Below are positions 4,682 through 45,277 of a stretch of DNA of 64,000 nt, piece after piece (the first letter of the stretch is position 1; each line of letters begins with the position of its first letter). Position numbers and translations under genes: made by a program. The notes under the pieces are model-generated. The model was not told the DNA's origin and made no database searches. It saw only the letters and a program-made list of their open reading frames with translations. The stretch covers positions 479,001-543,000 of the forward strand of contig JAFCMP010000008.1 of NCBI GenBank assembly GCA_017506865.1, in the 5' to 3' direction. The DNA comes from Tribonema minus. Lineage: Eukaryota; Sar; Xanthophyceae; Tribonematales; Tribonemataceae.

Positions 4682-4684
4682 CTA
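4646..4684 (-). repeat. Echo of the aminotransferase terminal exon end
   Basis: CCTAGGCGTGGTCTT(T)CATGAAG(G/A)ATGCGTG occurs at about 4651-4682 and again at 4681-4712. The second is the true end of the coding region; the first is a tandem copy past the stop. Confidence 0.7.
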
Positions 4685-7600
4685 GGCGTGGTCTTTCATG
4701 AAGGATGCGTGTCCCGCCTTGATGCGCTCCAGCATGATGGGGAACTTGTTCTCGGGTGGCAGGAACGTCGTCCGGAAGTGGTATGTGCCTGTCGACAGAC
4801 AGCAGGGAAGCGAGCACACACACACATGGCTGTCAGACTAGTGTACCTCAAGTTGAAGTGCATACTCAGCAACAGGCAGGCATGCGGTGCAACTAGCTAC
4901 ACTCATGTACATTGTAGAAATAGTCCTTGATGTTGGCGGAGTGATGCACGCATACCAATACGATACATTGATGCTACGTGACATCATACAGGAGCGGTGC
5001 CATACATATATGCATGGAGACGAATCAAAAGATCGTAGAGCTCTAGGTGACAAGGAGTGGTTAGCCGCAAGTGCCTTCCACCAATAACCGTGGTCGCCGC
5101 TGTTGCAGTCATTGGTCGCGAGTCAAACAGTGCAATCATATCCACAGTAGTCAAAAGACTTCTGTGTGCAAGCTTTTTAGCGTTCAAGGGCAGTATGGAA
5201 AGGTATGCATACTGTAGCCGTCGTGATGCTGGTCGTAATGCGAACATACACGCTGCCTCTTTATGGCTCTTGTGCTGCTTTGAAAACACCCAATCCCCAC
5301 TGACAAATTGTTTCCCGACCAACCGGAAAGCTCATCAGAGTGCCTGGCCACCGCTGCTTCCGAGGACACATACGGCACTGGCGAAAATACTATACCCTTG
5401 ACGCTACCCCGCACTTCAACAAAACTGCATGTGACGTCGTACGACCCTTACCCTAAATGTGATCCCATCGTTGAGTGTAACCCGAACTACAAGAAGGCTC
5501 ACCATGTGCCTGGCCAAAGCTGCTTCCCGGCACAAAAGATGATGCCCGCACGCGCACATACATGCATACCCTAGTCTCACGTTAAAACCGTACCCCATTA
5601 CTGCAAACATAACCCAAACTGCAACAGATACTCACCATGTGCCTGGCCAAAGCCGCTTCCCGGCACAAAGATGATGCCCGCACGCTCCAGCATCTCGAGG
5701 CAGTAGTACTCGTCTGCGGGAATGCCGCGCTCCTTGGCAATGTCGCGTGCCTTCTTGGACAGCGTGATGGTAGGGAAGGCGTACAGGGCACCGTCCACCT
5801 GCGGTGCTCAGCACGAATGAATGAGAGTTAGAGTCATGTAGAGTTGATGCTAAGATGGGCGGATTGCTAGGGTCGCCGCAAATGAAGGACATCGAAAAGG
5901 CACAGCGCTCAGCATGGAAATTGGAATTAGAGCTAGGGTTAGTTATGGGGTTAGGACGCGAATCGCACATCAATGACAGCGTGATGGTAGGGAGGGCGTA
6001 CAGGGCACCGTCCACCTGCAGTGCTCAGCACAAAAAATTGGAATTGAGATTAGGGTTGAAGTTAGGGTTAGGAATGGGTTATGTAGGGTTAGAATCGCAA
6101 ATCAACGACATCAGCAGCAAGGCACCGTCCACCGGCAGTGTTCACAACTAGAGGTGGGGTGGTAACAGTTTGGGGTCTGATTACAGAGCACACCGTGATG
6201 TCAGAGCTCAACCAAAAAGATTTATTGAAGGCTTAGTTGGAGTCAGGGGCAGGTAGAGTGAGGGTTGGGGTTCGAGCAAGGAAGCTTGGATGAAAAAGGG
6301 ATCCGGGGGGGCATGGTGCAAAGCGCCATCAACCTGCAGTGCTCAGCAAAGAGATTTGGGACAAAGTTTAGGACTGGAATTACAGAGTTGAGTTGCAGTG
6401 CTCTCAGCACGTGCGGGAGGTGCCATCGCTCAGAATTTCGTGCGCCGGAACATGAAGTCGGGCATTTTTGCTGATCTAGGCTGACCCATGGCCAACTGCT
6501 GATCTAGGCTGACCCATGGCCAACCCCAACCCTAAAGGCGACCTTCACTGATCTAGGCTAACCTGAAGGCAACAACAACAATACCCTATCAGCGCAGACC
6601 CAGGCTGAAACCAGATTCGACCAAAAGCCACGTTTCCAACTAACTTCTCGCAGTCGTTGTAACCAGCACTGCTTTTGCCCAAGCTCTTTAGAGCCAGTGT
6701 TTATGTCGGTTTCACATTTCATGTTATGTGACATTTGAAAAACGATCTGACTCAGCGAGTTGCAGGAGACGCCCTCGAGCGTGTTGAGCGCATCGCTCAG
6801 CAACTTAGCGCGCCGGCAATATTGCTTCGCTGATCTACGCTGACACAAGACAAACCCTATACCCTCACCCTGACCTGTCACTGATCAAGGCCGAGGCTGA
6901 TCATAATAATGATACCTTATCAGCTCAGCATGTCAGTTCCACGTTTGACAGGCAACTTGACTCAGCGAGTTGCAGGAGACACCCTCGAGCGTATTGAGCG
7001 CATCGCTCAGCAGTTTCGCGCGCCGGAATATGCTGTCCAGTATCGCGTCGCTAATTTGAGGCTAACCCTTCACTGATGTAGGACAAACCCGAGGGTGACA
7101 ACAACAAAACCGTATGTCAATTTCATACGTTCAAAATCTTCGAACTATAACTTCAGCTCACCGAGTTGCAGGAGACGCCCTCGAGGGTGTTGAGCGCATC
7201 GCTCAGCAGTTTCGCGCGCCGGAACATGCTGTCCAGAATCGCGTCGCGCTCCTTGGCAAACAGCGCATGGCTCTTGTCGCCCTCTTTTGGCGGGTTCACC
7301 ATGAGGCCCATCATCACCTGACCCGCCGTGTTGCTGCACAGGCTCAGGCTCGCCAGCTGTGTTGGGGGGGAAGGGGGGGGGGGGGGGGGGGGGGGGGGCA
7401 GGGACTCGGGGTCAGGAATGGGATTGGATTAAGCAGCATGGAGGGGAGAGGGGGGGGGGCGGGGGCAGGGACTCGGGGTCAGGAATGGGATTGGATAAAG
7501 CAGCATGGAGGGGAGAGGGGGGGGGGCGGGGCAAGTGCGGGGGGGTACAAGAGGGTCAAGACTAAGATTGGGGCTAAGCATGACCATTGATGCTGCTCCA

Positions 7601-10600
7601 GTGGCTCAAACAAGCCATTACATATCAGCATACAATACTGCTGACGTGTGAGTATACTGTTCATGTACATGGAGCAATCGCGAAAATGAGTGCTGGGATT
7701 GGCCATTGGCGACACCTGCGACACATTACCTGTCATTACCCTACCTACATGCCTACACGTGGCTGAGCGCTGTGTTGAAAAGAGAAATGGAAGGCGTGGC
7801 GTGCCACTAGGTGTGAAGGTATGTATGTATGGCTGTGTTGTGACAACAGACTCTTGGTAAGACCAGCTCAACAAAAAACACAGATGTGCAGCCTCCACCG
7901 TCGTGGCGCGCCTTCCGCATCGACTGGCAGCACAGCACTGCGAGTCTGACTTGGACTCCTGCTCATCAGGCAACCAGGTGCTTGAGTCTCGGTCTGTACA
8001 TGAGCACGTGCGAAAACAGTGTGCCCTGCACGAGAAGATGAAGGTGGGGGTAGAACTAGGGCTAGGGTTAGCGTTAGGGCTAGGGTTTGGTATGGTGGCG
8101 CACCTTGTACAGCTGTGCCTTGATGTCATCGGAGATGCCGTGCAGCTCCATGTAGCCACCTGCAGCGTGACAGAACACACACAGGTGCAAGTTGAGTCGA
8201 GTCACCAAGTCAAGTCGTTGAAAGCCTAGAGAGTTACTGGTAAGCTCCATGAAGCCACCTGCAATCAACATTATTGCCGGCAAGTGCATGTCATCTGTCA
8301 ACCAGCTCCAAGCAACACCAGATGCCGCAAATTGAGTCACCAAGTAGAGTAATGGAGCATCAAGAGCACTCGCTTGCAAGTACTTCCAGCAGCCACTGCG
8401 ATGTTGATGATTAATGCAAAGAAGACACCGTTATGTTCCCTGCGCACTCCAGGCTGCTTGCAATGGCAGGTGTGAACGCATGATCCGCCGCACCCTGATG
8501 CTTTCAGAACCTATGCACGTGATTGTGGTCCCTTCAAATTCCACGCAATGATTCTTGACTTGCCCCGACCCCCACCCGTGACCCCAAGTGATGCCATGTC
8601 GGTGGTGCGAAACCTGATGGGAGCTGCAGGCTACTTGAACTACCAAAGATTATGAGGTTTTGATTCACACTCACCTCGCACACCTTCCTGGTGGAATGGA
8701 AGAACAGGCTTATCAACTACAAGTGTAACTTCAAGTACTGACTCACCCCTCTGACCCATGCATTTCCCCCATGTGATCCTTGCTAGCGGACTAGGAGGTG
8801 ACAACAGCTACAGGCGACTTCGAAAAAAGCAACTACGCATGAGCTTCTCATAATACTTGCGCACATGAAATAGAAGTTGTGACTCACCCCGGACCCCGCA
8901 CTTCCCCCATCACCCCTTGCTGGTGGAATGGGAGCTGACAACGGCTGCAGGCTACTTCTACAACAACTACGCACGGATTTATCAAAAGCTTGAACTACAT
9001 GTAACTTCAAATAGTGACTCACCCCGCACCCCACTTCCCCCATGTACCCTTTGCTGGTGGAGTGGAAGCTGACGACAGTGCAGGCTACTCCGACAACAAC
9101 TACGCACAAGTATCTCAACATCCTTGAACTACATGCAACTTCAAATAGTGAACTTCAAAGAGCGACTCACCCCGGACCCCGCACTCCCCCATGTACCCCT
9201 TGCTGGTGGAGTGGAAGCTGACGAGCTGCAGGCGGTGGTCCCCCGGCTCTGCAGTGTACCCCAAGTCGCAGGCCACCTTCTTGAAGCTCACAAACGGCCG
9301 CTCCTGCTGCCACACGTTGGCCTGGTAGACCTCGTCTGCGATCACCACCAGGTTTTCCTCCACCGCCTGCAAGGGGCGCGAGCATTGACAAAACACAGGA
9401 GATAAGCAATGAGAGTTTAGAGATGATAATGATGATTGCACTTTGAGGGTACGGGGGTGATCACAGGGGTAGCAGTGACAGGGGGGCATGCAAACCGTAT
9501 GGTATGGCCTGGTACACCTCGTCTGCTATCACCATCAACTTCTCCTCCAATGCCTGCACGCGGCGCGAGCATTGACACATAACACAGAAACTGGGCCGCC
9601 AGTGGGCATCTACAAGGGTAGCAGCGACAGGGCGGCACGGCATGCATGCCGTATGCCACACACGTACAGTACGTGACATCTTGACCTGTACTCAGGCATG
9701 CGTTCGCAGAGACAGCCAAGTTGAAGTTTCAAAGTCAGGTTGAAGATTCAGCTGGAGCTCTTGGTCCGCAGCGTCAGACGTGCAGCGCTGAACGGAATGC
9801 AGCCGCCAAGCAGCACACCGGTGTTGGCGCTAAAACTTCAACTGCAGTCATAGAGATCATAACATGCGGCTCTAATTCTTGGCAATGGCATGAGGCGTGC
9901 AGTGCAACTTCAACTGAGGGTGGTGCACTCCAAAAGCGCAAGCGTGGACAAAGGATCACAAACAGTGTAATGGTGCTCATCTCATGTGATGATGCTCATC
10001 TGTGCTCACTGGCACACTCCTCATGAAATTGTATCGCCAGCGTTGAGCATCACTCACGAATCAATGAGTGGGTACAACCAAAACACCCTACATGATCATG
10101 AGGCACTACGGCACTGCTCAGGTGGGTATAATCATCGTCATGCAATCGCCCGCATCCACCGCGTCATACTCTTGAAAATAATAAAAAAAAGTGAGATATC
10201 GCTGCAAAAACATTGCACAGAGCGGACCAGCACACAAAGTTCAAGGACTTGAAGCGTCGCACACACTGCTCAGAGGTCTTTATGATCACTGCCACATCTG
10301 TTGTACGCATTTGCATACACACATGCAGATTTACATACGACGTCTGCTGACAGCTCCGTTGGCGTCTGCTCCCACATATGACAGATAATTGAAATTGAGC
10401 CACTTTTATATAAAGTCATCATGTCAGTGCTCACCAGCCAAATTGCAGCGATCTGGTCTTCTGTCAGCATGCTCCGCGTCGGGATTTTCAGGACACGTTG
10501 CAGCTGACGCAGATGCCTAGATGTCGACTATCCACAATACTCATGAATCGCATCGCTCGACGTACATGCATACATCCATGCATACAGGATATACATACAT

Positions 10601-13600
10601 GCATAACTACAGGATAACTCACCAGGCGTATGATGTCGGCGATCTGATCCTCCGTGAGGACGCTCCCCGTGGGGTTCCCGGGGTTGATGATGCAGATACC
10701 TACATATCGACTATCTATGTATCCTGACCATTCATGAACCACATCACTCTACATAGCCACATGCATTCTACATTGAGTTGTCATCTTGCCAGTGCTCACC
10801 AGGCGTATGATGTCAGCGATCTGCTCCTCCGTGAGCACGCTCCCCGTGGGGTTTCCGGGGTTGATGATGCAGATCCCCCGCACGCACACGCCATCGTCAT
10901 CGCGCGCCACCGCCAGGCTCTCCCTCAGCTCCTCGATGCTCACCCCCCAATTCCTCCCCTCAACCAGGTGATACGGCACGAGGCGCCCTCCCAGCAGCGT
11001 GAGCGTGGCCGAGTACAGTGGGTATTGGGGTATGGGGGTGAGCATGCCGTCTGCATGTCCGTCCGCCATCTCGCGCAGCATGCACTGCATGAGGAGCTTG
11101 ACGCCCTCGCTCGCGCCGTTGGTGAGGAAGACGCGGTCGGCGCGCGCGGGGTGGCCGTCGCGCTGCGCGATGAAGGCGGCCACCTCCTCGCGCACGGACT
11201 GCATGCCCTGGCTGTTGGTGTACACGCCTGTAGGAGGGAAGGGGGTGTATGTGTGTGAAACAAAAGAAGCGGTATGATGCAGTTCAACTTGAAGATTTGA
11301 GTGCCATTCAATGAGGAAGGCGCAGTCGGCGCGCGCGGGGTGTCTGTCGCGCCGCGCGATGAATTCCGCCACCTCTTCGCGCACAGACTGCATGCCCTGG
11401 CTGTTGGTGTACACGCCTGTGTGTGTGTGTTTGAGGGGGGGGGGTGGCAAATAGAAGTAGTTGGGCTGAATACACGCAATCATAGATGCAGCTGAAGGGT
11501 ATGAGCATACGTGCAGCGCATGGCTGTCACGCCGCGCAATGAAAGCAGCGATTTCATGATGCACAGACTGCATGCCCTGGCCGTTGGTGTACGCGCCTGT
11601 TGAACACGGTGACGACGACGCGGCCCAGGGAGGAAGTGATGAGGCGACAAAAGCAAAGCTGTGATCCAGTTTAGATTAAGGTTTGAGTGGGGCAGGCGTG
11701 GTCGTCGCGCACGGGGTGGCCGCCGCGCCGCGCGGTACAGGCAGCGACTTCCTCGTGAACAAACTGCATGCTTTGGCTGTTTTTTTTATGTAGACGCCCG
11801 AGGCATCAGCAAAACCCCTAGTGACAAACCGCCGTTTGTAAAAGTTGAAGTTGTTGTACGCAGTACATGTCTGCATGCCTGTGCTGTGGCGTACATCTCT
11901 GTGCAGTTATGGTTGAGAGTAAAAGTTTGGGAAAGTAGTTGAAAGTGAGAAACCTCAAAGAAGGTTTGAAGTTGAGAATCGACGAGCGCTGCGCTCCGCT
12001 CCAGGACTTGCCCTCTCCTCACGCAACGCACGCTGCCTAGAACTTCCTGACCAATTGATATCAAGGTACAGCAGCCACACCACGTCACGCTCTTGCGTAG
12101 CTGTCACTGATAGTGGTCAGCGTACACTAATAGTGGCCAAGCCAAATGAGAGCGCTGAGCAAGTGACGATGACTGATGGCGATGACTATGGCAACAGCAC
12201 CACTAGTTGAAGGAGACGCTGTGCTGCAGCTTCTGCATGCCCCAAGCGGCAGCGTATAGGTGTGGGTACGTGTGGGGAATTTACAATCCATCCGAGCGCC
12301 AGCCTAAGTGTAATCCAGTATTGAAACAGAATAATGGAGCGCAACAACGGTCACAACAGCTATGCAAAGGTATTGGCCGCAAGTGGCTGTTGCGCAGGTA
12401 CACTGCGTGCAGTGTGCCGCGTGCTGCTGGCGCAGACGGCATCATTGCACCTACTGTGCGCTGGTAGCTACACTGTGATGTATGAACTTCCTGTTGAACA
12501 GAACTCTCCTAACGCAAGACGCACCCTGGCGCACCCTATCAGTGTCTATCAGTGGTGAAAACATATGACAATGTAGTACTTGCACTTGCTGCGGAAGAAC
12601 AAACCGGTTGCGTGTTCACACATCGCAGCCGTGCTGATATATTGTTGGTCGCCATTGTTGTCGAAAGTGTAATTCTTGTCCCCCGTGCCTATATAGTGAC
12701 ACTTAGTGCTACTGTCTGGTTGCTAACCTCTACCACAGTTCGTGGAACTGCAAAGCGCAACAGCAGTGTAAGCTACACACACGCACTGGGCCTTGCTGGA
12801 ATGAATTCATTCATGATTGTGCACGTTGCACTGATCACAGTTGCAGCAGCAGCCGTTCCAGTTGTTGCCGCTTCCAGCTCTCTGCGTGAAGCTAGCACAT
12901 GGACCCGTATACTGCAAGTTGGAATTCGAGCAGTCAAAGAGTTGGCAAGGTTCTACGAGTCAACCTGCTTGTTCCGCTTTACACAGCTGCATCTGCAAAC
13001 CTCTCTGCGACTTTGCTGTGATAATCAGCGCACCAACTTTTGAAGCCTGCTGTGTGCCAATAGCACTAGCATTCAAAGAGGCACTATGTGTGCAACACAG
13101 TGAATCATAGAGCCTTTGCAAGTGACGAATATGCGCGCTCCGAGGTTCTTTGCGTGCAGCAGACACCGCGCGCAAGGACAGGGGCCTTGACATGTAGATA
13201 CAGGTATCAGTACTTTCAGCACCATACTATATTGTACTTGAAAATTCGCACTCACCCATGCCCCCAGACGTGCACTTGACATACTTGCGAGCCCGCTCCA
13301 CGGCCTCGGGATCAAACAGGCCCGGTGGCGCTGTATCCAGCAGCTGCGGATACATGCAGAGGCTCAGCACCTGCCTGTTGAACGTCAGCGGCGGCTGCTC
13401 CAGTGCCTGCGGGTTGCCTATGTTGAGGGCAATGATCTGGTCAAAGGGGTACTTGTGGCCGTCCGCCATCCGCGCCTGTATTCTCATGCTGGCATCCAAC
13501 ACCCGCCCTCTCACGGCGTAGCTGGTCTGCGTCACCCTCTTGTTCATGGTGTGTGCATTGAGCGTAGGGGACCGCAGAGGGTGATGTGGGTGCACATAGG

Positions 13601-26307: not shown

Positions 26308-26533
26308 GTGAGTAGCTCTGGTGTTTATTTATTTGTGAGTGTATATGGAAACGAATTGACAGATCGTAGAGAGATAGATGTACTAGCATAGGTATTGGTA
26401 CTTAGTGTACATGCAACATGTATGTGCAGCTGGGTACTCAGGGGACTCACACAGGGGGAGGAAGGACGCCTGGGGTGAGTAACTCTTGTATTCATTAATA
26501 TGTACTATCGTGGTAGGCCGTAGGGGTATTGGT

Positions 26534-26660: not shown

Positions 26661-26695
26661 CTATCGGTACCTCTAGCGTACTCATATAAAAAACA

Positions 26696-26880
26696 AATCA
26701 AAAGATCGTAGAGCTCCAGGTGACAGGGTGTGGTTAGCCGCACATGCTTTCCACCAATAACCGTGGTCGCCGCTGCTGCGGCCATTGGCCACGAGTCAAG
26801 CAGCCATTGGACACCATATCCACACGAGCAGAACGACTTCCGTGTGCAAACTTGTAGCATTCCAGGCATGGGTGTTCAGT
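26696..26880 (+). repeat. Dispersed repeat family A, copy 2
   Basis: Matches 5026-5195 with scattered substitutions and extends to GGCATGGGTGTTCA, which is shared with copy 4 at 40141. It is followed by a tandem of GTATGGAAAGCTCTCTATTATATTA (26878-26935). Confidence 0.75.
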
Positions 26881-31805: not shown

Positions 31806-32038
31806 GCAGCATCAGGTTTCTGAAGTGTGTGTGTGACAAGCGCAGGTCAAGGCTTGTTGGTCAATTCGAGGTAGTCATCCTGGTGCAGCAGGCTGTGCTT
31901 CTGTGCTTCAGGGATCAGGGTGAAAAAAAATCAGGTAACTTCAAGCTTGTGTTGAAGTGGGGACGCGACGCTTGAAGTTTGAGGAGGAGAGAAAAGTGCA
32001 CCGTGGCAGTGCGTGGTCGACTGTGTGTACTGCTGCAA
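31806..32038. promoter_or_regulatory. Shared 233-bp divergent promoter region
   Basis: The only DNA between the kinase start codon (31805, -) and the GatB start codon (32039, +), so promoters of both genes and both 5' leaders should lie here. An A-run (31923-31931) and repeated GTTGAAG/CTTGAAG motifs are visible. No TATA box is evident at a convincing distance. Confidence 0.5.
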
Positions 32039-35000
32039 ATGGGCACCAGGAGAGTGGAGCTGGCCACAGCAGCTGCTGCCGCCATGTGTCTGGTGCTAGC
32101 TTCGCACCTGAGGCTTGTTTCAGGCTTATGCGCCAGGAGCGTGCTCGGCGCCAGCAGCGTTGGCAGCAGTAGGCATGCCGTGGCTTCACGGCAGCGTCAC
32201 ACGCTGAGGATGGGTGCGGCTGCCTCTACTGGTGGCAAAAGGAAGAGAGGGTAAGTGCTAATGTTAGCATGTACTGGCAGGAACTGGGTTTGATACATCG
32301 TACTGGACGTGTGCATGTTTTGCTTGGCTGGCAGAATTGCGTGTTGCAATCGCACCTTTACACCCGAGCAACGTGAGCAGCGCAGTGCATTTGAATGAGT
32401 ATGATGACACAAGAGCAAGGGTCCTCGTTGTGAGTACCTGGTGGCACAATAGTGCTTACCTCGCACCAAGCTCTGGCAGGTAGCTGTCGTGACTGACAGA
32501 GCTGACAGAGCAGGCTGTCACATGTCGGCACACAGGCAATGCAATGGTGATAAGCGGCTGCATGCGTTTGACGTCAGGGCTTAACCTGGTGTATGTGTCA
32601 CCGGCACATCCATATGAAGTAAACCAGCGGCTCACGGTGGCAGCTGCGCGGGAGTTCCTCAGCTATGCGGAAGTTCCTCTGCTTGTTGAGGCAGCCGAAA
32701 CGAACGACAAATATGCCAGCTGTGTTGGGACAAATGATCTGCTAAGAGTTATTGATGTCTGGTGCCTGGGAAAAATTGTGTGCATGTCATGTGCATACAG
32801 CTGGCACTGCCATTGGCGCCATTGCTTGCACACACATATTACCACAACGCCGCAAGTGCGAAGAGTGACATCACTGCTGGGTGATACGGTCTGCCTCCAC
32901 TTTCCTGTTTGATTCACTACGCCAGTGATGGTAGCATTCACACAATGGCCTTCATCAAAGACCGTGGGTTGTGCTTGGAGGTGTTGGCGTTTTCGTTGAT
33001 GCAGTGAGCTTCTCAAGCTAGAACAGGATATCGCGCATGTGAGGTTCATTGATGATTCTTGTGGTTGTATTGTTCGGTGCCTCACCGCAAGCTCTGGACA
33101 ACGCTCTGCAGTGCCTAACACTTGGTCCACACAATGTGCGTGCCATTGCGCTTCAAGGCTGCAACCACTTGTCTGAGCCATATGAACTGAGGCATGCTTT
33201 GTAGCCAAAAGTATGGCGAAGGATGTGATAATGCTTGCTCACGCTCACCAAGACTTTGCATAGAGTTCTTGCGCCAGTCTTCTAGGTCTGTATGCTGTCA
33301 AAGCTTGCCCTGACATGCTGCTGTTGCGCTGCGTCATCGCTGGCAGCAAAGCAAACCCGGAGATGGATGCGGTGCTGGAGAAGTACGAGCCCGTGATCGG
33401 CATCGAGATACACGTGCAGCTGGCCACGGAGAGCAAGGCGTATTGCAGGTATGTAGGTATGGCAAGGCATATTGCAGGTATTAGGTAATGGCAAGGCATG
33501 CTGCAGGTATGTAGGTATGGCAAGGCGTACTGCAGGTACGCAGGTATGGCAACGCGATTACAGGCACGTAAGCATGGCAGAGCATACTGCAGGCATGTAG
33601 GTATGGCAACGCATGCTGCAGGTATGTAGGTACGGCAAGGTGTAGTGCATGGCTTGTCTTAGTGCAATTACGCAAGTATGGCAAGCCATGCTGCAGGTAT
33701 GTAGGTATGGCAAGGAGTATTGCAGTATGGCAAGCCACGCTGCAGGTATGTAGGTATGGCAAGGCGTATTCCCGGTACGCAGGTATGGCTGTGGGCATGC
33801 CGGCCTGCCTCTTCAGGGTCACGCGCGCTCACTTGAATGTCAGAGTCCTACGTATGAGGGTCTGCCTTCACCCTTGCATGTGGCGTCACGCATGCCTGAT
33901 GGCCCGTCCGTCACCTCACGAGTGCAACTTGGATTAACTGTAGCCACAGAGCCCTCAACAGTCCTTCAATGCCAGCGTGTGCACTGTGCAGGCATGGCCC
34001 ATGGGCGCCGTGGATGGTTTGCGGGGCGCCATCGCGATGTGTGCTCTTACTCAATCCATTCCTTTGCTGCAGTTTTTTCATTCTTTCATCGCGCCTGTTC
34101 CTGCGTAGACCATCGATGGGGCACGGTGCATCCCCCCCCCCACGAATGCCACCTCACGTTTGCAGTCTACTTACAGCCACCAATACCCCCCTCTTGCCCC
34201 CAATACCATCATCTGGCGCAGTTCCTCCGCCGCCGATGCTGACAGCAACATCCGCCAACACCATTTTGCCCCATTTGGTGCCCCCCCCCCCCCCCCCCCC
34301 CCGGCACTGCCGCCTTGCAGGTGCAGCACCACCTACAGCCCCCTGACCCCCAACACCAATATCTGCCCGGTGTGCATGGGGGAGCCAGGGTCCCTCCCAG
34401 TGCCCAACGACAAGGTGGTGGAGATAGCCGCAAAGGCAGGCATGGCGCTTGGCTGCAGCATCGCTCAGGAGACCAAGTGGGACCGCAAGAACTACTTTTA
34501 TCCGGACACACCCAAGAACTATCAGATCACGCAGTACGACAGGTGAGGAGCATTGTGTCATAGAAGCAGTAGGATATGTGGTGCTTGAGGGCATCTGGAT
34601 AGCATGTTTCAGGTTAGACCTAGAGTTAGGGAATGGCGCTCGGCTGCAGCATCGCTCAGGAGACCAAGTGGGACCGCAAGAACTAGTTCTACCCTGACAC
34701 ACCCAAGAAGCACCAGATCACGCACTACGACAAGTGAGGAACGTTGCACTACACTGGAAGTATGTACACAGTGCTGGAGCGTGTCAGGTCAGGTCTCGGA
34801 TTAGGGCGTGGTCGGGATGCAGCACTGCTCAGCAAGAAGCCCAGACACCCCCATGAACTATGTACCAGATTACACAGTACGACAGGTGAGGAACGTACCA
34901 TAACGTGGTACGTAATGCTCGGGCGTGTCTGGACAACAACTCTCAGGTTAGGGTTAGGGTTAGGGTTAGGGCATGACGCTGGGAATGTAGCATTGCTCAG

Positions 35001-38000
35001 GAGACAAAGTGGGTCAACGCCATAGCTACTTGTTTGCATTTGCATACGCGCAAAAACCACCAGATCACGCAGTGCAATCGGCGACGTACAAATAGGGATG
35101 AGCGCTGCCGGCCGGCTTTAATACTACAATCATCAAGTCCCTGAGGCACACTGACCAACTTGAGGGGAGTACACTTTAACTTTGACTTTTGCTTGCCACA
35201 AGGACGGCCAGGTGATGCAATTAGTGACACACACAAGTGCTGAAATACAAATGCCTCGAACGCTAAAAAGCTTGCACACAGAAGTCTTTTCTACTGTGGA
35301 TATGATGGCACTGTTTGACCGTGGCCAATAACTACATCATCGGCGACCACGTTTATTGGTGGAAGGCACTTGCGGCTAACCGCTCCTTATCATCTAGTGC
35401 TCTACAATACTTTGATCCGTTTTCATAAATGCTGACTTGACTTACTTCAGAAGTACTTGTTAGAACAGGCATCTGCACTTCACCGGATTTTGCTCTGTAG
35501 GTTGTGTGAGCAACGTGCCGATGGTATATATGGAGTGGCATACCTACTAACTGCGAGTGCCCGATTATGTACTCTCGTGCGACTTAACCCTAACTCTAAC
35601 CCTTGTTCGCAGCACTTGATGCCTCTGCGCCAGTGTATGCAGCACTTCACCTTGAACTACATAAGAAGACACACGTGCAGCGCCCCCGGGATCATTGGCA
35701 AGCACAAGCGCATACTGCAATTCATGGACATGTATGTTCTGCCCCCTTTCAATATAATGTACTGTAGTACGCATACATTGCAAGCGCATAGGCGAGGACG
35801 GGCGTATTCTGCTGCCCAACGGTGTGATGCGCAAACACATGCATGCTACATGTGCGTGGCGCGTATACATGTACATGCTATAAAGTAGCTCTGTCATAAA
35901 GTGCACATGTCGTGCTGCAGTTATCCTCTTATATATGTGTGCGCTGTGCCCCAGGCCCGTAGGCGAGCACGGGCGCATCCTGCTGCGCAACGATCGGGAA
36001 GTGGGCGTGACGCGCATACATATATGCTTTGGCGTACTTGTTCTAGCATATACTTCGTATTGAACAAGAATCATCGATTGTATGCGTGCGCTGTGCTCCA
36101 GGCCCATAGGTGAGCATGGACGCATCCTGCTACCCAACGGGCGTGAGGTTGGCGTCACGCGCATACATATGGAGGAGGACAGCGCCAAAATGAACCACCA
36201 GGGGGCGGGCACGAGCCTCGCGGGCAGCACGCACTCACTCATAGACTTCAACAGGTTAGCGGCACCGCGCAGTGACATTGTTGAGATGAACCACCAGGGG
36301 GCGGGCACGAGCCTCGCGGGCAGCACGCACTCACTCATAGACTTCAACAGGTGACTGGCCACTGCTGAGTGACATTGTTGAGATGAATCACCAGGGGGCG
36401 GGCACGAGCCTCGCTGGCAGCACACACTCACTCATAGACTTCAACAGGTGACTGGTCACTGCTGAGTGACACTGTTGACATGAACCACCACGAGCTTGCG
36501 GGCAGCACACACTCCCCTTGTAGACTTCAACAGGTGACTGGCACTTTGCTGAGTGCCATTGTTGAACCACCACGAGCCTAGCGGGCAGCATGCACTCGCT
36601 CAGAGACTTCAACAGGTGACTGGCACTACTGAGTGACGCTGTTGAAATGCAGTGGTGATGGATTGATATGCTTGGAACTGCAGCAGACTTCAACAGCCCA
36701 ACTGCCAAATGGCAGGTTGGTACATACTGCCCCCCCTTTGCCAGCCGATCGCGGAACTATTGCAAGAGCTTGCCCAAAGATTAACTGGTTAGTTCAACTG
36801 TAAGACTGCCAGCTGCACATGTTGAGCAGGGCCACCCGCAACCTCAATACATGATCTGTCATCGAGGACTTCAAGTGAAGGCTGACCAGCTGTACTTCAA
36901 CCCGCTTTGTATCAGATTTGCACGTCAGTCCAGGTAGCGCTTGCTCTCAAGCCTGCACATGTCAAGCCGGTGGATGCAGTCGACACGGCATGTCATCATC
37001 TGAATGTTGATGCCAGTATCACTTACTCAGTCTGCCGCATTGACGCATGCACGCATGGGTTTCCTGGAATCCAACCCAACGTGGTGACTGGCATGATCAG
37101 GGCGTTCGTGCCAAGATGATGATGATGTTTCAAAAGTGTGCAGATATTAGTGGCAGTCCATATGAATGTATCATGAATATTGTTCACCATATCTGCTCAT
37201 GGGGCTCTACTCGTTCATGCTCGATACACGACGCGGACGCTTCAATAGAATATGTAGCACAATTTACAGCAATTAGCGCTTGCTCTCAGACTTAAACAGG
37301 TCAAGCCGCTGGGCTGCAGTAGGAGGCAGCAGATGTATACTTCTACTTCGAATATAGTATATGACTACGTCATGACTCATGATCATGCTGCTCATGACCA
37401 CCAGAGACACGACGCCTCTCAGCACAGGTGTCCAACGCCGCCAAGCGCGAAGGCGTCTTGCAGTTGCACCCAGAAATCATTCACCTGCCCCTGTTGTAAA
37501 TGTAAGCGTGACCTGCCAGTGCGACTCTGGCGGCGGTTGGTCAAGAGCCGCTGATGCTTTCTACGCCTCTAACCCTGACCCCAACCCTCAGTATGCACGT
37601 CCTTGCGCTCCAGTGCACGGCGAGCATGCAACTGGCACAATGTGTGCCTATGTACACCCTAAGACCCGTTCTGCACCGCCAGTTTGCGTGCATCAAGGCG
37701 TGAAGTCTAAACCGCGTTCTGTACAGCGCCTTAGTTTTCACATACGTGGCCAACGCAACGTCACTCGCAGCGCTAGCGACCAGCGCAGGTGTGGCCCTTC
37801 AGCACACGGCTCGTGGCGCAGGCAGCAGCGGCTCAGTACCTAGTAGTCATGGCGCTGCACAGCCACTCTCGCCATACCTGGGCGTGCTGAGTGACGCACG
37901 GCCAGCGACCCTCGTCACCAGCTGGGCGCGATCTGATTGGCTGGTTTCGTATTCATTCACTTAATTGTTCTTCACGGCCCTCCAAAGGGCGCTGTGAATC

Positions 38001-41000
38001 CATCTGCAATATGCCACAACATTCACGTGTTTTTCATCCATATTCACGCCAAAAGCCTCAGAGCGCAGAACGGCCCTAACCCTAGTTATGACCTGTGTAA
38101 CACCGCGCAGGCACATGATTGATAACCATTGTGTCCAAACCCTGAGTCTGACCCACACTTACCCTAGCTCCAACCCTGACATGCTCAAACGCAGGCAGGC
38201 ATACCGCTAACAGACATTGTGTCTGAGTTTTACACGCGCAGCAGCCATATGGACACCAAGCCTTACCCTGACCCTAGTTGTGACCCGCTCAAACACAGGC
38301 AGGCATGACCTCTCATTGGCGGGCATCGCGCCTCAACCGTACCCCAAACCACTATCAACCCACTGACATAATACCTGTTGGACAACTCTAACCCTAACCC
38401 AATCCCCCAAGTGATGGGCATTGTGTTGTATCTCCACCCCAACCCTAGGCCCTGATCTAGCTTACCCTACCTCTGATTCGCTGCAACACAGGGCAGGAAT
38501 ACCGCTGGCGGAGATTGTGTCTGAGCCCGACATGCCAAAGCAGCCACACTGACACCAGTCCTAACATTCAACTTACCCTAGTTATAATGCACTCAACCAC
38601 AGGCAGGCATGCCACCTATTGGCGGGCATCGCGTCTCGACCGTGACTCAGACCCATACTGACCCCAGCGCTGGCATGTTCTATACAAAACAACTCTTTTG
38701 AACACAGGGCAGGTATACCTCTGGCGGAGATAGTGTCCGAGCCCGACATGCGCAGCGGCTTGGACGCAGCAGAGTACGGCAAGGAGCTGCAGCGCATACT
38801 GCGCTACATCGGGGCCAGTGACGGTGAGCACTGCCGCCTGTGGCGCATACATACATACCTACTTGCACATGAAGGGGGGTTGAGCACTGGGGCCAGCGGC
38901 AGTGAACAGTGTGGCTCGTGATGCGGTCATTCGTATCTATGTCTGTAATGGCAGCATCCACATGCACGCACACGTGCACATCGGGGCCAGCGACGGTGAG
39001 CACTGCCGCCTGTGACACGGCCGCGCATACATACATGCCTACTTGCCCATGGCGGAAGGGGGGGTTGAGCACAGGGGCTAGCGACAATTAGCATTGTTGC
39101 TCCGGATGCGGTCATTCATATAAATATATATGTGTCTGTACCTGCAGCATATACACGTATGTACACATCGGGGCCAGCAGTGCTGAGCACTGGGGCCTGT
39201 ACATACAGGTACATGCATGCGTACATGCCTGTGGGGGCAGCAGTGATGAGGTGCGTCCCCCATTGCGCGGCTGCACATGCGTAGATAGTCTAGACACATA
39301 ACCATGAGCGTAACCCTGACATTGACCCCAACGGACGGCGGTTGGGGATGAGCATTTTGTTGCAATGATGCGGCTTGCTTGTGCACACACACCCTGGGGG
39401 GGGGGGGGGATGAGCTCTGTCGCCCGTGGCGTGGCCACACACATAACCATTAGGGGCAGTGGCACGAGCATTGCTGCCCATCAAATGCGCCCACGCTTGG
39501 ACACACGTGTGCTGCATACTTTGCCACAAGTAGTTGCAGAGTGTTGAATTGGCCTAATGATGTTCTTGCAGCCAAGCCCAGCCCCATGCGCATTTGCCAT
39601 AGTGGTGTCCACAAGTTCCTCGTAGTGCCACTGGCCTTGTGAACTCTTCAAGTCTGCAAGCGTTGCTTTACAGTACACATTTGCTGCAACATGGACTTGA
39701 AGCAGTACCCCAGTGCACATGCAACGAGGTCGCAGTGATGCAGCACTCAATTCTATATGCAGGCAACGTGGCAGGGGGCAGCTGTTATAGCAGCAGTGCT
39801 CAATTATGTCATACACATCCCCCTTATTTGCAGGCAAGTGGCAGAGGGCAGCCTTTAGGAACAGCAGTGCTCAATTCTGTCATGCAATTACCACTTGATT
39901 TGCAGGCAACGTGGTGGAGGACAGCCTGCAGTTGAACATCAACCCTACGGCAGTGCTCAATTATATAAAAAAAGAATCAAATGATCGTTGAGCTCTAGGT
40001 GACAAGGGATGGTTAGCCGCAAGTGCCTTCCACCAGTAACCGTTGTCGCCGCTGCTGCAGTCATTGGCCACGAGTCAAACAGTGCCACCGTATCCACAGT
40101 AGGCAAAAAAGACTTCTGTGTGCAAGCTTTTTAGCGTTCGAGGCATGGGTGTTCACTATCTTGCACATGATGCTTCTTTGCGACATAGATGGCGGAGGGC
40201 AGCCTTCTCACAAACGTCAGGTTGCAGCAGCGCCCAATTCTCCCTTACACATCTCCCTTGTTTGCAGGCAACATGGCGGAGGTCAGCCTGCGCCTGTGTT
40301 ATTAAGATGACAGCAGTGCTCAATTCTCCCTTCCACATGCCACTTCTTTGCAATATACATGGCGGAGCGCGGCCTGCGCCTGGACATCAACATACCACGT
40401 CAAATTACAGCAGTGCTCAATTCTCCCTGACACACTTATCTTATTTGCAGGCAACATGGCGGAGGGCAGCCTGCGCCTTGACTGTTGACATTACAGCAGT
40501 GCTCAATTTTCCCTTACACGTGTCCCTTCTTTACGTCATGTATGGCAGAGGGCGGCCTGCATCTGGACGTCAACGCGTCTACGTCACATTGCAGCAGCGC
40601 TCAATTCTCCCTTACACATGCCCCTTGTTTGCAGGCAACATGGCGGAGGGCAGCCTGCGCCTGGACGTCAACTGTCAACGTGTCCCCGTCAGATTGCAGC
40701 AGCGCTCAATTCTCCCTTACACATGTATCTTGTTTGCAGGCAACATGGCAGAGGGAAGCCTGCGTCTGGACGTCAACGTGTCCCTGCGACCAAAGGGGTC
40801 ATCGGAGCTCCGCACCAAGGTGGAGCTCAAGAACCTCAACAGCTTCAGGGCGGTGCAGGAGTCGACTGACTACGAGATCATCCGACAGGGGAAGTGAGTG
40901 ATACTTGCATACATACCGTTTTTGAACTTACACAAACTTCAACCCTAAGGCGCCACGCTTCAACAAGGTGCAGGAGTCGACTGGCTACGAGATCATCCGC

Positions 41001-44000
41001 CAGGGAAAGTGAGTGGTACCTACGTACATGCCCCTTGTTGAACTTGCACAAACGTCAGCTCAAAAGCGCTACGCTTCAAGAAATTGCCATTGTCTGGGCC
41101 CACTAGCATCAAGCTCTGGCTGATTGGTTTGAATGGCTTTGTGTCAACAGTTGGCCATCGGTGAACATAGCATTGGGTTCCTGTCAAGTCACAACAAGCA
41201 TGAAGTGCTGTTGGTGTAATGTTTGATGATGAGATGCTTGCGTCAACCTGCAGTACAGCAGCTGATGGCTGCCACTATAAAATAGCCATCTGTAGCTACA
41301 CGATCCTGCCCACCTATTCTTTCATTGAAGGTCTCAGCACCAAAGACCATGGATGCCACAAACATGATACGTTGCGCATTTACTATGTTTGTGCATGTGG
41401 CAGCCTCCCCTTTCTTGTCCTTGTCCCCCCTCTGACCGCGGACACCGCATATTGTTTTATACGATATTCAAGTATGGTCTTGCAGTATGTATGCGTGTGA
41501 CAGCCACACCTCGTGTGATTAAGTGCCGAGTGGAATTCCCGTTTTGTTGTCTTATTTTCCACCCCTCGGTCCGCGGACACCGCACGTTGTTGTCTATAAG
41601 AGTATACAATATTCATGTGCGTATGGTCTTGCGGTTTGTATGCATGTGACAGCGTGCCCTCACGTGGTTGAGTTCCGGTGTTCTGAGCCTTCCTGAACTA
41701 CATCTGAACTGTTTGTGTGCCTTCCTGAACTACATCTGAACTGTTTGTGTGTGCTTGCTGTACATGCGCTGTGCTGCGGTGGCAGGTGCTACGAGACTGG
41801 CGAGACCATACGGCAGGAGACCCGCCTGTGGGATGAGAAAGAAAAAGTCACCAAGATCATGAGGGTCAAAGAGGTGAGACAGTATAACAAAATATCTGGC
41901 CTCATGAATGCGCATGTGACAAGGAGAGGGTAACTAAGATTATGAGGGTCAAAGAGGTGAGACAATATACATTGGAGCGTATGACAGTTGCATGCTGGAC
42001 CATTGCTGTTTGCACGCTTGACGGTTACGGCAGTTACACCTGCCGGTAGACAGACCACAATACATTCACTTGTAGCAGCACACGACTGGCGTCGGTCTTC
42101 TGTTGCATTGGCCACCTTGATGTCTACCTCTGCCGGTGTGGAGCAACAGGGTACATAGTGAGCAACAGCTCTCTACGTTGCAACAATTACAGTATATGTG
42201 GCTCATGTATGCGCATGTGACAAAGGAAAAAGTCACCAAGATCATGAGGGTCAAAGAGGTGAGATTGTATATATACTTCGAAGTATATATATATATATGT
42301 GGCTCATGTATGCGCATTGACAAGGATAGGGTAACCAACATCATGAGGGTGAAAGAGGTAAGATAATGTATATCAATATATGTGGCTGAGGTATGCGCAT
42401 GTGGTGCTGTGCAACACAGAGGCCATGTTCACAAGTACTTAGATGCAACCTCATGCATGCACAAAATGGGGGTATTGCGGTCACGGCCGGTGTCCAATTA
42501 GAATTTGACTAGGGTTTAAGCTGTCAAGGGCTACATACATATTGCGATGGGTGAAAGTGGAGCGTCTGTGTTAGTTGACGAATTATGTTATCATCCAAAT
42601 CACTGTACAATCAACTCTCGAAACGCTGCACTTTTGACTTTCAAATTTGAACAGTTCACACAACTGGACAGTTGACTGTCAACTTCACAACAATTACTTC
42701 AAGTCTGCGCAGGGGGCCGGGACATAAGTGCTCTGCCTTCCCAGAGCTGGTTATCCCACCGCTCGTTGTTGCTAATCCTCTCCTGTTCGCTGATCTCAAA
42801 CTCTCACCACCCGCATTTTTGACTCTTGCCCACTTGCTTCAACCCCTGCACAGGGTGAAACGGGCCACCATTACTTCCTGCAGCCAGGCATGTCACATCA
42901 CTTCCTGACCCTGGCTTCAAGTCTTAACTGCCTCTCTTCCCGCTCGTTGAAGTACCATGACCTCCTGGACCCAGAGGCATTTCACATCACTCATCCTAAC
43001 CCTGTCTCGAAGCCCTAACCTGACTCGGTCCCTGCTCGTTGGACAACCATTACCTCCTGAAGCCTGGCATCTGACATCACTGACGCCCGACTAATCCTAT
43101 TCCTACTTGTTCCCACAAACTTCAACTTCACAGGGCGAGTCGGACTACCGCTACTTCCCAGAGCCGGACATCCCCCCCCTCAGGCTGCCCCGCGCGGTGA
43201 TAGACGGCTGGAGGGCGGAGCTGTGCGAACTGCCCGCTGAGAAGAGGGCGCGCTACCGCTCAGAGTACAAATTGAGCGAGGCTGACGCGGAGACCATCAC
43301 TGACGACCAGGTGAGCACTGAGTGCAGTAAGTAGGTATGTATTGACTGCGAAAGAGGGCGAACTGCCCGCTGAGAAGAGGGCGCGCTACCGCACCGAATA
43401 CAAGCTCAGCGAGGCTGACGCAGAGACCATTACTGACGACCAGGTGAGCTCCGAGCACTGAGTGCAGTAGGTAGGTATGTATTTACAGCGAAAGTGGGCG
43501 CGCTTGCGCACAGAATACAAGCTGAGCGGACTGATGCAGAGACCATTACTGACGACCAGGTGAGCTCCGAGTGCAGTAGGTATGCCTTACTCGCGTGCAA
43601 GTGAACTGCTTGTGGACTGTGGTGCGCAGCTGCTGAGGAGAGCGAGATGATTACCGACCTCCGAGTATGGTAGGTCTGTGTCGTTTGGGCGGTGAACTGC
43701 TTGTGAACTCTCTGTGGACTGCCGCGATGAGGGCGCGCAGCAGCGTGAGGCTAGAGCCCACACCATCGCCCCAAACAGGCGAGCTCCCAACTATAGTAGG
43801 TATGAGTTGCGCGCCGGAACTAGAAGTGTACTGCTTGTGGAGTTTTGTATGAACCCCCAATCCCAATCCTAACCCTAACCTCAACCCTAACGATGCTCGT
43901 CCGCACCTGATGCTGATGATGCTCATCCGCAAGTATCCGATATTGACAACACGCTTTTGCCCATTTCCCGCGCCCGCTGCCGCGCAAACGGTCGCCGCGT

Positions 44001-45277
44001 ACTATGACGCCGCCATCGCGGCGGGCGCAGATGACGATGCTCGATGCTCATCCGCAGCATCTGATGATGATGATGATGCTCATCTACAAGTACTGATGGC
44101 GTTTACACATATCCCGCGCCTGCTCCCGCGTAGACGGTGGCTGCGTACTTTGAAGCCGCCATCGCAGCGGGTGCGGACCCCTCTGAAGCCGCCAAATGGA
44201 TTCTGGGGGACATTGCCGCCTACGTCAACAAGGCTGCCGTGGCGATCACCGACATTGGTCTCACGCCGCCGCTGCTGGCAGAAATGGTGACGCTCATTCA
44301 GGGTGGCAGAATCACCGGCAAAATTGCCAAGGAGCTTCTGCCGGAGCTGCTGGAGGGGGGGTGCGAGGGGGGGGTCGCGGCGGTGGTGAAGGAGCGCGGG
44401 ATGGAGGTTATAACTGACGTTACTGTCATCGAGGGGGTTGTTCGCGAGGTCATGGAGAAGAATGCTGACAAGGTGCGGTGCGGCAAGCCCACAACTTCAC
44501 CTTTGAAGTGGCGCGTGCATACAGTAGCTCGTGGAAGCACGCGCTTCATAGTTGAGGCGCATCGCCTTCCGCAACGGCTCACTGGCAAGGCAGCAATGAA
44601 TTGGTGATCACTAGCCGTGTAGTGAAAGGGAGCAGCAGGGCCAATGCATCATGGACATAACTGCACCCATGTGGCATGGCTGCACCACCTCCACCTGCCT
44701 AGATGAATGCAAAGTGTACCCCTCAAGCGTACGTGTAACTTCAAGAGTACTTGTAACTTCACGACCAAGACGTGCACACAGTTGCCTCCATGTCACGTGG
44801 CCGCACCACCCCATACATAAGACATGTCCAGGCTATTCAAGTGTGTGTGTACTGCGCAGTAGATGTGCACACATTAGTGCGCGCCATCGCATGCCAACCA
44901 CCGGTTTACTGCCCTGTGCTCATCTAAGAAACACCATACCATACCTATCGCGCGCATTGTGGCGTTGCAGGTTGAGCAATACCGCGGCGGCAAGGCGCAG
45001 CTCGTTGAGTAACGCACATTCGTGAGAACACCCCTGAAACCCCCTGTACCAGACGAAACATGAGCTGCCCATATTCCAACCTTCGAACGCCCTGTGCTCA
45101 TCTGACACCATACCATACGTACCTACGTGCTTGGCATTGCAGGTTGAGCAATATCGCGGCGGCAAGGCGCAGCTCGCGGGCTTCTTTGTGGGCCAGAGCA
45201 TGGCACTCAGCGGCAGCCGCGCAGATCCCGGGACGTTGCAGCGAGTCGTAAAAGCCATGCTCGACGGGACGCAATGA
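32039..45277 (+). CDS. gatB: Aspartyl/glutamyl-tRNA amidotransferase subunit B, organelle-targeted
   Basis: Ten exons: 32039..32250, 33347..33448, 34321..34542, 36102..36254, 38708..38823, 40740..40893, 41786..41873, 43134..43310, 44134..44472 and 45143..45277. They sum to 1698 nt, 565 aa plus TGA, with every phase consistent. GatB is the kinase/transamidase-partner subunit of GatCAB, which converts Glu-tRNA(Gln) (and Asp-tRNA(Asn)) to the amide form in organelles and bacteria. Seen: [13 protein letters not shown], zinc-site-like cysteines in CSTT...CPVC, SLIDFNRAG(I)[20 protein letters not shown](L)[30 protein letters not shown] and the C-terminal YqeY-like helix domain ending VEQYRGGK...FFVGQ. 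The leader [24 protein letters not shown] looks like a signal peptide, so plastid delivery via the ER is possible; a mitochondrial or dual location cannot be excluded. Introns are up to 2.5 kb and full of exon echoes. Confidence 0.95.
33435..33795 (+). repeat. Minisatellite made of the GatB exon 2 donor edge
   Basis: At least ten units of 24-36 bp with core GGTATGGCAAGGCGTATTGCAGGTATGTA or variants run from the last bases of exon 2 through 33790. Most units keep CAGGTA(T/C)G, so the intron starts with an array of potential donors. A C22 tract at 34281-34302 precedes the real acceptor of exon 3. Confidence 0.85.
34615..35080 (+). repeat. Echoes of GatB exon 3 donor edge
   Basis: The copy at 34633-34740 repeats about 100 bp of exon 3 (ATGGCGCTCGGCTGCAGCAT onward) but has an in-frame TAG in place of TAC, and keeps a GTGAGG donor. 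Shorter decayed copies lie at 34845-34895 and 34985-35080. A perfect telomeric run GGTTAGGGTTAGGGTTAGGGTTAGGG lies between them at 34946-34971. Confidence 0.85.
35262..35420 (-). repeat. Dispersed repeat family A, copy 3 (reverse)
   Basis: GAACGCTAAAAAGCTTGCACACAGAAGTC onward is the reverse complement of 5026-5195, inside GatB intron 3. Confidence 0.75.
35780..36045 (+). repeat. Upstream echoes of GatB exon 4
   Basis: The start of exon 4 (CAGGCCCATAGGTGAGCATG) is copied at 35951-36025 (CAGGCCCGTAGGCGAGCACGG, acceptor kept) and more weakly at 35786-35850 (GCGCATAGGCGAGGACGGGCG). Intron sequence upstream of each acceptor (GTGTGCGCTGTGC) is copied as well. Confidence 0.85.
36275..36660 (+). repeat. 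Downstream 90-bp tandem echoes of GatB exon 4
   Basis: The exon end from ATGAACCACCAGGGGGCGGG to AACAGGT is repeated about every 90-95 bp with starts near 36287, 36382, 36478 and 36555, each followed by CAACAGGTGACTGGC. The copies shorten and diverge to the right. All keep AACAGGTGA, a usable donor. Confidence 0.9.
38180..38545 (+). repeat. Upstream echoes of GatB exon 5
   Basis: The true exon start CAGGGCAGGTATACCTCTGGCGGAGATAGTGTC (38704) is copied at 38491-38540 (CAGGGCAGGAATACCGCTGGCGGAGATTGTGTC) and at about 38190-38232. Several CAGGCAGGCAT remnants lie between, mixed with CCCTAACCCTA-like motifs. Confidence 0.8.
38860..39200 (+). repeat. Downstream echoes of GatB exon 5
   Basis: The exon end ACATCGGGGCCAGTGACGGTGAGCACTGCCGCCTG (38808) recurs at 38978-39013 nearly intact, with partial copies at 38885-38910, 39065-39090 and 39163-39190. 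Confidence 0.85.
39755..40735 (+). repeat. At least seven upstream echoes of GatB exon 6
   Basis: CAGGCAA(CG/CA)TGGC(G/A)GAGG(G)CAGCCT(G) and the preceding TTGCTCAATT(C/T)TCCCTTACAC(A)... block recur near 39758, 39832, 39902, 40185, 40265, 40355, 40448, 40538 and 40633 before the true acceptor at 40738-40739. The last copies (40448, 40633) keep acceptor and exon start almost exactly. Spacing is about 70-100 bp. A family A repeat interrupts the series at 39968-40150. Confidence 0.9.
39968..40155 (+). repeat. Dispersed repeat family A, copy 4
   Basis: GAATCAAATGATCGTTGAGCTC through TTTAGCGTTCGAGGCATGGG matches copies 1 and 2. It splits the exon 6 echo series, so it inserted after part of that series had formed. 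Confidence 0.8.
40950..41030 (+). repeat. Downstream echo of GatB exon 6
   Basis: GGTGCAGGAGTCGACTG(A/G)CTACGAGATCATCCG at 40852 recurs at 40968-41012 with its donor AAGTGAGTG intact. Confidence 0.9.
41915..42365 (+). repeat. Downstream echoes of GatB exon 7
   Basis: The exon end AAAAAGTCACCAAGATCATGAGGGTCAAAGAGGTGAGA (41841) recurs at 41924-41965, 42224-42262 and 42322-42362, each with donor. An ATATAT tract at 42282-42298 lies within the array. Confidence 0.9.
42700..43130 (+). repeat. Upstream echoes of GatB exon 8
   Basis: The exon start GGGCGAGTCGGACTACCGCTACTTCCCAGAGCCGGACATC is echoed, with decay, near 42710 (CAGGGGGCCGGGACATAAG...CTTCCCAGAGCTGG), 42853 (CAGGGTGAAACGGGCCACCATTACTTCCTGCAGCCAGG), about 42955 and about 43045. 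Spacing is about 90-140 bp. Confidence 0.7.
43340..43650 (+). repeat. Downstream echoes of GatB exon 8
   Basis: GAACTGCCCGCTGAGAAGAGGGCGCGCTACCGC to GACGACCAGGTGAGC is copied at 43358-43450 almost exactly, at 43488-43568 with losses, and weakly at 43600-43650. Donors are kept in the first two copies. Confidence 0.9.
43945..44060 (+). repeat. Upstream echo of GatB exon 9
   Basis: The block TTTCCCGCGCCCGCTGCCGCGCAAACGGTCGCCGCGTACT at 43964 repeats the true acceptor region and exon 9 start (44110-44175). Here the acceptor TAG has become CAA, so this copy cannot splice at that point. Confidence 0.85.
44955..45012 (+). repeat. Echo of the GatB terminal exon with an early stop
   Basis: GCAGGTTGAGCAATACCGCGGCGGCAAGGCGCAGCTC is an almost exact copy of 45139-45175 with its acceptor. 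It then reads GTTGAGTAA, an in-frame stop. Splicing here would give a GatB ending [13 protein letters not shown], lacking the last 32 residues. Confidence 0.9.

Follow-up and report, generated by a model that had tools for sequence, protein, structure and literature searches.

Introns of Tribonema minus contain serial copies of the edges of their own exons, possibly derived from repair between diverged alleles

The introns of the yellow-green alga Tribonema minus (Xanthophyceae) contain serial copies of the edges of the exons that they adjoin, which we call echoes. We analysed a 64-kb stretch of its genome (hereafter the window; positions 479001-543000 of the contig, from a parent assembly of 158 Mb in 554 contigs), in which the segment 4682-45277 is bounded by the stop codons of two genes, alanine aminotransferase on the minus strand and GatB on the plus strand. 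The echoes are real. At 19 of the 30 splice borders of these two genes, the exon edge (up to 80 nt) was found again in its own adjacent intron at a threshold of E < 0.001, as compared with 0/30 borders on the reverse strand and a single match in 420 comparisons of exon edges with other introns. A longer query, in which the intron was joined to as much as 150 nt of exon, added two borders, one of which rests on a 21-nt match. The majority of borders (21/30) are therefore echoed, although the wording of the earlier note on this DNA, that almost every exon border carries copies, was too strong. Its statement that a border may have up to nine copies agrees with our results, as about ten repeat places were found at 39754-40739, before GatB exon 40740-40893, only five of which are found with the exon alone.

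The exons of both genes were set with two known proteins, P0121 for the aminotransferase and P0001 for GatB. P0121, an alanine transaminase of T. minus, has 100% identity over 91% of the aminotransferase query from the window, and P0001, a GatB from the transcript assembly of an alga, has 99% identity over 100% of the GatB of the window. All 15 introns of the two genes are of the GT-AG type. The gene models are as follows.

32084-45277, plus strand: GatB gene, 10 exons, open spliced frame, match to P0001
32084-32250, 33347-33448, 34321-34542, 36102-36254, 38708-38823, plus strand: GatB exons 1-5
40740-40893, 41786-41873, 43134-43310, 44134-44472, 45143-45277, plus strand: GatB exons 6-10
4682-13547, minus strand: alanine aminotransferase gene, 7 exons, open spliced frame, match to P0121
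13256-13547, 10800-11227, 9171-9366, 8104-8159, 7162-7356, 5636-5798, 4682-4788, minus strand: aminotransferase exons

The echoes were located at the following positions of the window.

33434-33789, plus: donor array of GatB exon 33347-33448, 29-bp unit
34630-35073, plus: three donor echoes of GatB exon 34321-34542
35782-36023, plus: two acceptor echoes of GatB exon 36102-36254
36286-36649, plus: four donor echoes of GatB exon 36102-36254, 97-bp unit
38194-38535, plus: two acceptor echoes of GatB exon 38708-38823
38978-39230, plus: two donor echoes of GatB exon 38708-38823
39754-40739, plus: acceptor array of GatB exon 40740-40893, about nine copies, with a dispersed 190-bp repeat within it
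40967-41082, plus: donor echo of GatB exon 40740-40893
41917-42403, plus: three donor echoes of GatB exon 41786-41873
42735-43081, plus: probable acceptor array of GatB exon 43134-43310, weak (a single 28-nt match to the exon, besides copies that match one another)
43358-43582, plus: two donor echoes of GatB exon 43134-43310, both encoding Thr where the exon encodes Ser
43891-44031, plus: acceptor echo of GatB exon 44134-44472
44911-45004, plus: acceptor echo of the last GatB exon
11312-11781, minus: three acceptor echoes of aminotransferase exon 10800-11227
10415-10700, minus: two donor echoes of aminotransferase exon 10800-11227
9505-9587, minus: acceptor echo of aminotransferase exon 9171-9366
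8714-9085, minus: four donor echoes of aminotransferase exon 9171-9366
6425-7051, minus: three donor echoes of aminotransferase exon 7162-7356
5975-6034, minus: acceptor echo of aminotransferase exon 5636-5798
5478-5553, minus: donor echo of aminotransferase exon 5636-5798, with a second, of 22 nt, at about 5340-5361
4651-4681, minus: copy of the stop-codon end of the aminotransferase in its 3' flank

The repeats are tandem and direct. When the window was compared with itself, 74 of the repeat pairs separated by less than 6 kb were direct and one was inverted; a segmental duplication at 48556-55074 accounts for three of the 74, and coding or minisatellite repeats for a few more. Repeat pairs are also present where the earlier note had placed them in other genes, i.e. 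a GTPase (922-1118 and 1344-1432), an alanine-rich gene (21614-21757) and a plastid-type gene (26265-26336 and 26432-26503). Two of its further observations hold as well: the repeated unit is specific to each border, with lengths from 29 to 217 bp, and the single match among 420 cross-intron comparisons indicates that no common element sequence is involved. The source of the echoes is not a second gene, as a 175-base query from GatB exon 41786-41873 matched its own locus only, and the GatB protein likewise matched only its own locus in the genome (15 matches).

The unit spans the border, with a mean length of 147 bp and a standard deviation (SD) of 42 across 36 arrays, for which the lengths were compiled by hand from intron searches. 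Eighteen of these 36 lengths are divisible by three, with 13 and 5 in the other two classes, a marginal excess that may be due to chance. In the two genes, the unit holds on average about 55 nt of exon and the remainder is intron; the exon part comprises 15-104 nt of longer exons (19 arrays), and the intron part measures 14-155 nt where the border is a donor (11 arrays) and 63-177 nt where it is an acceptor (8 arrays). That the minimum is longer at acceptors would be consistent with the branch point and the pyrimidine tract having to stay with the live copy. Most echoes of the two genes have kept their splice sites (GT at 17 of 19 donors, AG at 10 of 15 acceptors), and the known proteins indicate that the copy that is spliced is the one attached to the exon body. 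The suggestion that the duplicates are tolerated through splice-site choice is thus supported, since the body-joined copy is used despite the sites retained by its neighbours. In the segment 36246-36480 the live donor reads CAG/GTTAGC and all four echoes read CAG/GTGACT. In the segment 43134-43582 the GatB exon encodes Ser and P0001 has Thr; Thr codons are found in both donor echoes, which therefore seem older than the change in the exon.

Echoes are also found elsewhere in the genome. In 20 introns of other genes, flanked by conserved domain exons (MCM, GTP_EFTU, DEAD) and with approximate borders, 20 of 40 borders were echoed (8 donors and 12 acceptors), which brings the total to 41 of 70 borders in 35 introns. 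Among the ends of coding sequences, one of four tested had an echo (the stop-codon end of the aminotransferase), a proportion not significantly different from that of splice borders. A sample of 72 fetched loci, some of which overlap and one of which lies within the window, contained 343 direct and 3 inverted repeat pairs, with 51 loci positive for direct pairs and 2 for inverted pairs; the 21 loci with no direct repeat indicate that not every gene is echoed. Twelve stretches taken at arbitrary round coordinates (48 kb in total, genes not annotated) gave 42 direct pairs and one inverted pair in 19 families, with 8 of the 12 stretches positive. In a looser set of domain exons, an edge echo was found in 16 of 50. 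This set was reduced from 60 by omitting L029, L031, L034, L030 and L035, together with L020, L022, L023, L042 and L057, in which the segment contains stops.

Duplication is concentrated at borders. Only six repeat families lie wholly within introns and away from echoes (35 introns, 38 kb), one of them telomere-like and one C-rich; the number rises to nine if three doubtful families are included, which adjoin acceptor arrays in GatB intron 6 and aminotransferase introns 1 and 4 (numbering from 0) and were assigned to those arrays. We simulated intron-only duplications with the observed unit lengths and subjected them to the same search. Detection was 78% at approximately the divergence of the nearest echoes, and 57% and 12.5% at two heavier decay settings. 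Uniform placement would then yield about 93 intron-only families at 78% detection, about 68 at 57%, and 36 at an assumed detection of 30%. Borders are thus enriched about 6- to 15-fold, provided that introns do not decay much faster than the nearest echoes show. A border-specific duplication process that lengthens introns, as the earlier note suggested, is supported by these results, with 41/70 borders echoed and 6-9 intron-only families found where 36-93 were expected.

The order of the copies and the codon positions at which they differ allow us to gain further insight into how the arrays arose. In the nine arrays with at least three echoes, codon positions 1 and 2 differed from the exon by 2.6, 5.5 and 9.9% in the nearest three echoes (ranks 1-3), and in all 35 arrays of the strict set by 3.3, 6.7, 9.9 and 7.4% for ranks 1-4, rank 4 comprising 81 sites. 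Echoes 1 and 2 share changes relative to the exon at just 5 of 658 positions 1 and 2, and are therefore mostly separate copies of the exon and not copies of each other. Array growth mainly by copying of echo from echo is ruled out by the same count, although it was seen in at least one array. Because the copies were mostly taken separately from the exon and decay tends to grow with distance, copies seem to have been added serially at the live border, with older ones displaced inward.

The strict set excludes two EF_C32 arrays with stops in their domain segments, whose two borders remain in the 20/40 count. In its 35 arrays the nearest echo differs from the exon at 44 of 1329 positions 1 and 2 and at 132 of 661 third positions, a ratio of 6.0 (bootstrap 4.3-9.0), whereas an echo dead from birth would be bounded at a third-position divergence of at most about twice that of positions 1 and 2; the likelihood ratio against a ratio of 2 is 51.5. 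The two genes (22/722 and 74/360) and the independent genes (22/607 and 58/301) show the same pattern. Changes private to echo 1 were found at 16 of 658 positions 1 and 2 and at 36 of 327 third positions. At third positions the private changes are similar in number, with 29 in the exon, 36 in echo 1 and 40 in echo 2 (of 327), and at positions 1 and 2 they rise from 5 in the exon to 16 in echo 1 and 38 in echo 2 (of 658). The third-position excess in the nearest echoes points to coding-type divergence before silencing; exon and echoes thus seem, from their codon pattern, to have diverged as coding sequence, with each echo silenced later. The view of the echoes as copies decaying as dead sequence from birth is not supported in the strict set. 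When the looser loci are included, all neighbouring echo pairs give 62/1302 at positions 1 and 2 and 71/646 at position 3, a weaker third-position bias (L041 and L032 were also left out of this count). The intron parts of the nearest echoes, aligned by anchors and compared with nulls, show 23.5% difference plus gaps; a global alignment of the intron parts was set aside as too near its random baseline (0.74). Three other accounts of the codon pattern were rejected. Gene conversion of the echoes by the present exon would equalise position 3 and the others and was rejected by reasoning for the strict set; a greater mutability of third positions was rejected, base composition giving a value of 0.99; and a single series of duplications in one lineage was rejected for the strict set because the private changes of echo 1 are biased to position 3.

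It is thus established or strongly supported that the tandem units span the border, that most copies were taken separately from the exon and, in the strict set, that divergence is of the coding type. This picture would fit copies derived from diverged alleles, or a later recombination in which the exon was exchanged for that of such an allele. We propose, with a probability of only about 0.4 for the mechanism in full, that repair of exon breaks from a diverged allele, followed by end joining, makes the echoes. A break would arise in the exon, at most about 100 nt from the border, and repair would begin on the homologous allele, which is well matched within the exon. Synthesis would then pass the border into an intron too diverged between alleles for the new strand to anneal back to the other side of the break, which would be closed by end joining. 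The product would consist of the exon body, a new edge from the other allele with a short piece of intron, and then the old edge with the old intron; the new edge would be spliced and the old edge would become the nearest echo. Deeper breaks in the exon would lead to ordinary gene conversion and breaks in the intron would have no usable template, so that borders alone would accumulate copies. Short exon parts and a direct orientation of the copies would likewise follow, and any microhomology at the junctions would be concealed within the tandem copies. The mechanism would require exchange between alleles and a high allelic divergence, which we infer to be roughly 0.13 at silent sites.

Several of our results weigh against this proposal. 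The break, the donor allele and the junction are steps that we infer and did not observe, and GatB is present in a single copy in the assembly, so that no second allele is visible. The rank order of the echoes is weak by a sign test (13 arrays in favour and 5 against, one tie, p = 0.10, 19 arrays). GatB exon 36102-36254 is identical to its nearest echo at 65 of 65 exon bases, yet the intron flanks differ, and two echoes of aminotransferase exon 7162-7356 have a lost GT in common, which indicates copying between echoes there. Third-position divergence is uneven between arrays, from 0/21 to 7/14 (chi-squared 60.4, 34 degrees of freedom). In the looser 50-exon set the divergence was 41/432, 25/431 and 64/431 at positions 1, 2 and 3 (9.5, 5.8 and 14.8%), a pattern compatible with plain decay, and some of its segments may be dead copies. 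Finally, at the harshest decay setting (12.5% detection) the expected number of intron-only families falls, by scaling, to about 15, and the excess at borders would become small.

The preference for borders could itself be one of visibility. Tandem duplications may occur everywhere, being purged in exons, fading in introns and remaining visible at borders through the conserved exon, and a duplication across a border would be tolerable if the body-joined copy is spliced. We regard this explanation as unlikely. It gains from the intron parts of several arrays, which are near random (5 of 17 nearest echoes fail to beat all nulls), from the compatibility of the looser exon set with plain decay, from the background families that do occur within introns and from the one echoed coding-sequence end in four; but at 78% detection it predicts 93 intron-only families where 6-9 were found, and the third-position ratio in the strict set is above the 2 that neutral decay would allow. 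The mean unit length of 147 bp is close to that of a nucleosome core, though the spread is wide (SD 42), as might be seen if borders were hot spots of breakage or replication stalling (through a nucleosome edge, transcription or an R-loop) at which duplication proceeds from the sister chromatid, with later recombination between alleles swapping the exon but not the echo. Such hot spots would cover both the border preference and the codon pattern with no diverged donor at the time of duplication, but high allelic diversity would still be required, and no hot-spot signature in the sequence was found, none having been searched for; we consider this account rather improbable, with some claim to attention.

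A useful role for the echoes, either in splicing or as translated alternative coding edges under selection, would be in keeping with the coding-type divergence of the nearest echoes, their intact splice sites (GT 17/19, AG 10/15) and the marginal excess of unit lengths divisible by three (18/36). An echo is a partial exon, however, and its use as the edge would insert the entire unit; the other half of the units (18/36) have lengths that are not multiples of three, a shared lost donor was found at 2 of 34 sites checked, and the known proteins contain no echo sequence, so that we hold this reading to be very improbable. We give hardly any credence to the arrays being assembly errors, given that the differences between copies are graded from 0 to 27%, that many contigs are involved with nearly all pairs in direct orientation, and that independent protein records match the spliced exons.

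Several known systems resemble the echoes in part. Introners are a genome-wide source of intron sequence in which one element is shared by many genes, whereas each border in T. minus has a unit of its own. Short local copies at repaired double-strand breaks are also left by templated insertions and synthesis-dependent end joining, which in this respect resemble the echoes, but neither is known to us to occur only at exon borders or in series there. The growth of minisatellites by copying between repeat units is mostly not seen in T. minus, given the few changes shared by echoes, at least one array being the exception, and duplicated alternative exons are whole exons with acceptor and donor, whereas the echoes contain part of an exon only. 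One precedent is the potato RNA-dependent RNA polymerase gene, in which one tandem duplication across an intron-exon boundary created a new intron (PMC4974935). The potato event was single and intron-making; in T. minus 41 of 70 borders are affected, often with several copies and at both donors and acceptors, and introns become longer, with no new intron made in the two genes. The same article describes the model of Rogers, with ATP2A1 as a case, in which duplication of an exonic segment containing AGGT yields an intron (PMC4974935). Such gains and the echoes are alike in being tandem genomic duplications whose outcome is tolerated through splicing; in the Rogers-type event the unit is exonic and creates splice sites, whereas in T. 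minus it includes the existing border and its splice sites. Of the features described by Rogers and Hellsten, the tandem unit is found here, with regular spacing and direct orientation, and the new intron in a former exon is not, as neither gene shows a change in its protein. We found no title reporting serial exon-edge copies in introns in the open-access literature, the scope of our search, which covered neither subscription papers nor preprints. The earlier claim that no named system matches therefore stands for a serial, genome-wide, border-confined process, which is not known to us from any other report, but must be qualified for the single duplication event, which has a precedent in potato (PMC4974935).

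Other repeats were observed in and around the window. The dispersed repeat of about 190 bp within the acceptor array before GatB exon 40740-40893 (39965-40165) also occurs at 5020-5190, 26684-26893 and 35244-35430 (minus), with copies 80-96% alike, and at no fewer than 40 places in the genome, from 2445 first-look candidates. GatB intron 34543-36101 contains 26 bp of perfect telomere-like GGTTAG units (34946-34971), and an MCM intron (L072) contains a telomere-like 35-nt stretch twice. A segmental duplication of 1.4 kb with 97% identity lies beside a kinase-like gene (48556-49933, 52198-53338 and 54834-55074). Its second copy is interrupted by a 1.5-kb insert that resembles a small long terminal repeat (LTR) element and is flanked by 260-bp direct repeats with 98% identity (53339-53597 and 54574-54833). 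The minus strand of 55700-64000 contains a long coding stretch that, by impression from the sequence and with no search made, resembles a retrotransposon polyprotein. A segment resembling a GTP-binding factor is common to three contigs (L029, L030 and L031) at 99.8% identity or more; two of the copies are near a contig end and one is on an 18-kb contig, and they are perhaps duplicates of chromosome ends.

The lengthening of introns and the origin of their sequence are a long-standing question to which transposons have often been the answer, and the echoes of T. minus provide a source with no shared element. The order of events can be read from the arrays, the youngest copy tending to lie nearest and the exon being, for the most part, the source of each. 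The results also raise the question of how splicing selects the body-joined copy when neighbours with intact sites start 29-217 bp away. It is a tentative suggestion, which we would sooner doubt than affirm, that a nearly clock-like, border-confined duplication makes much of the intron content, and that introns are an age-ordered record of former exon-edge alleles, each live edge having been replaced repeatedly by that of a diverged allele; the Thr codons of the two echoes at 43358-43582 would be an example. If repair from diverged alleles is indeed the origin of the echoes, the introns of one genome would keep ordered and linked samples of past alleles, and the loss of homology at exon borders would become a cause of structural mutation that can be tested in species of very high diversity.

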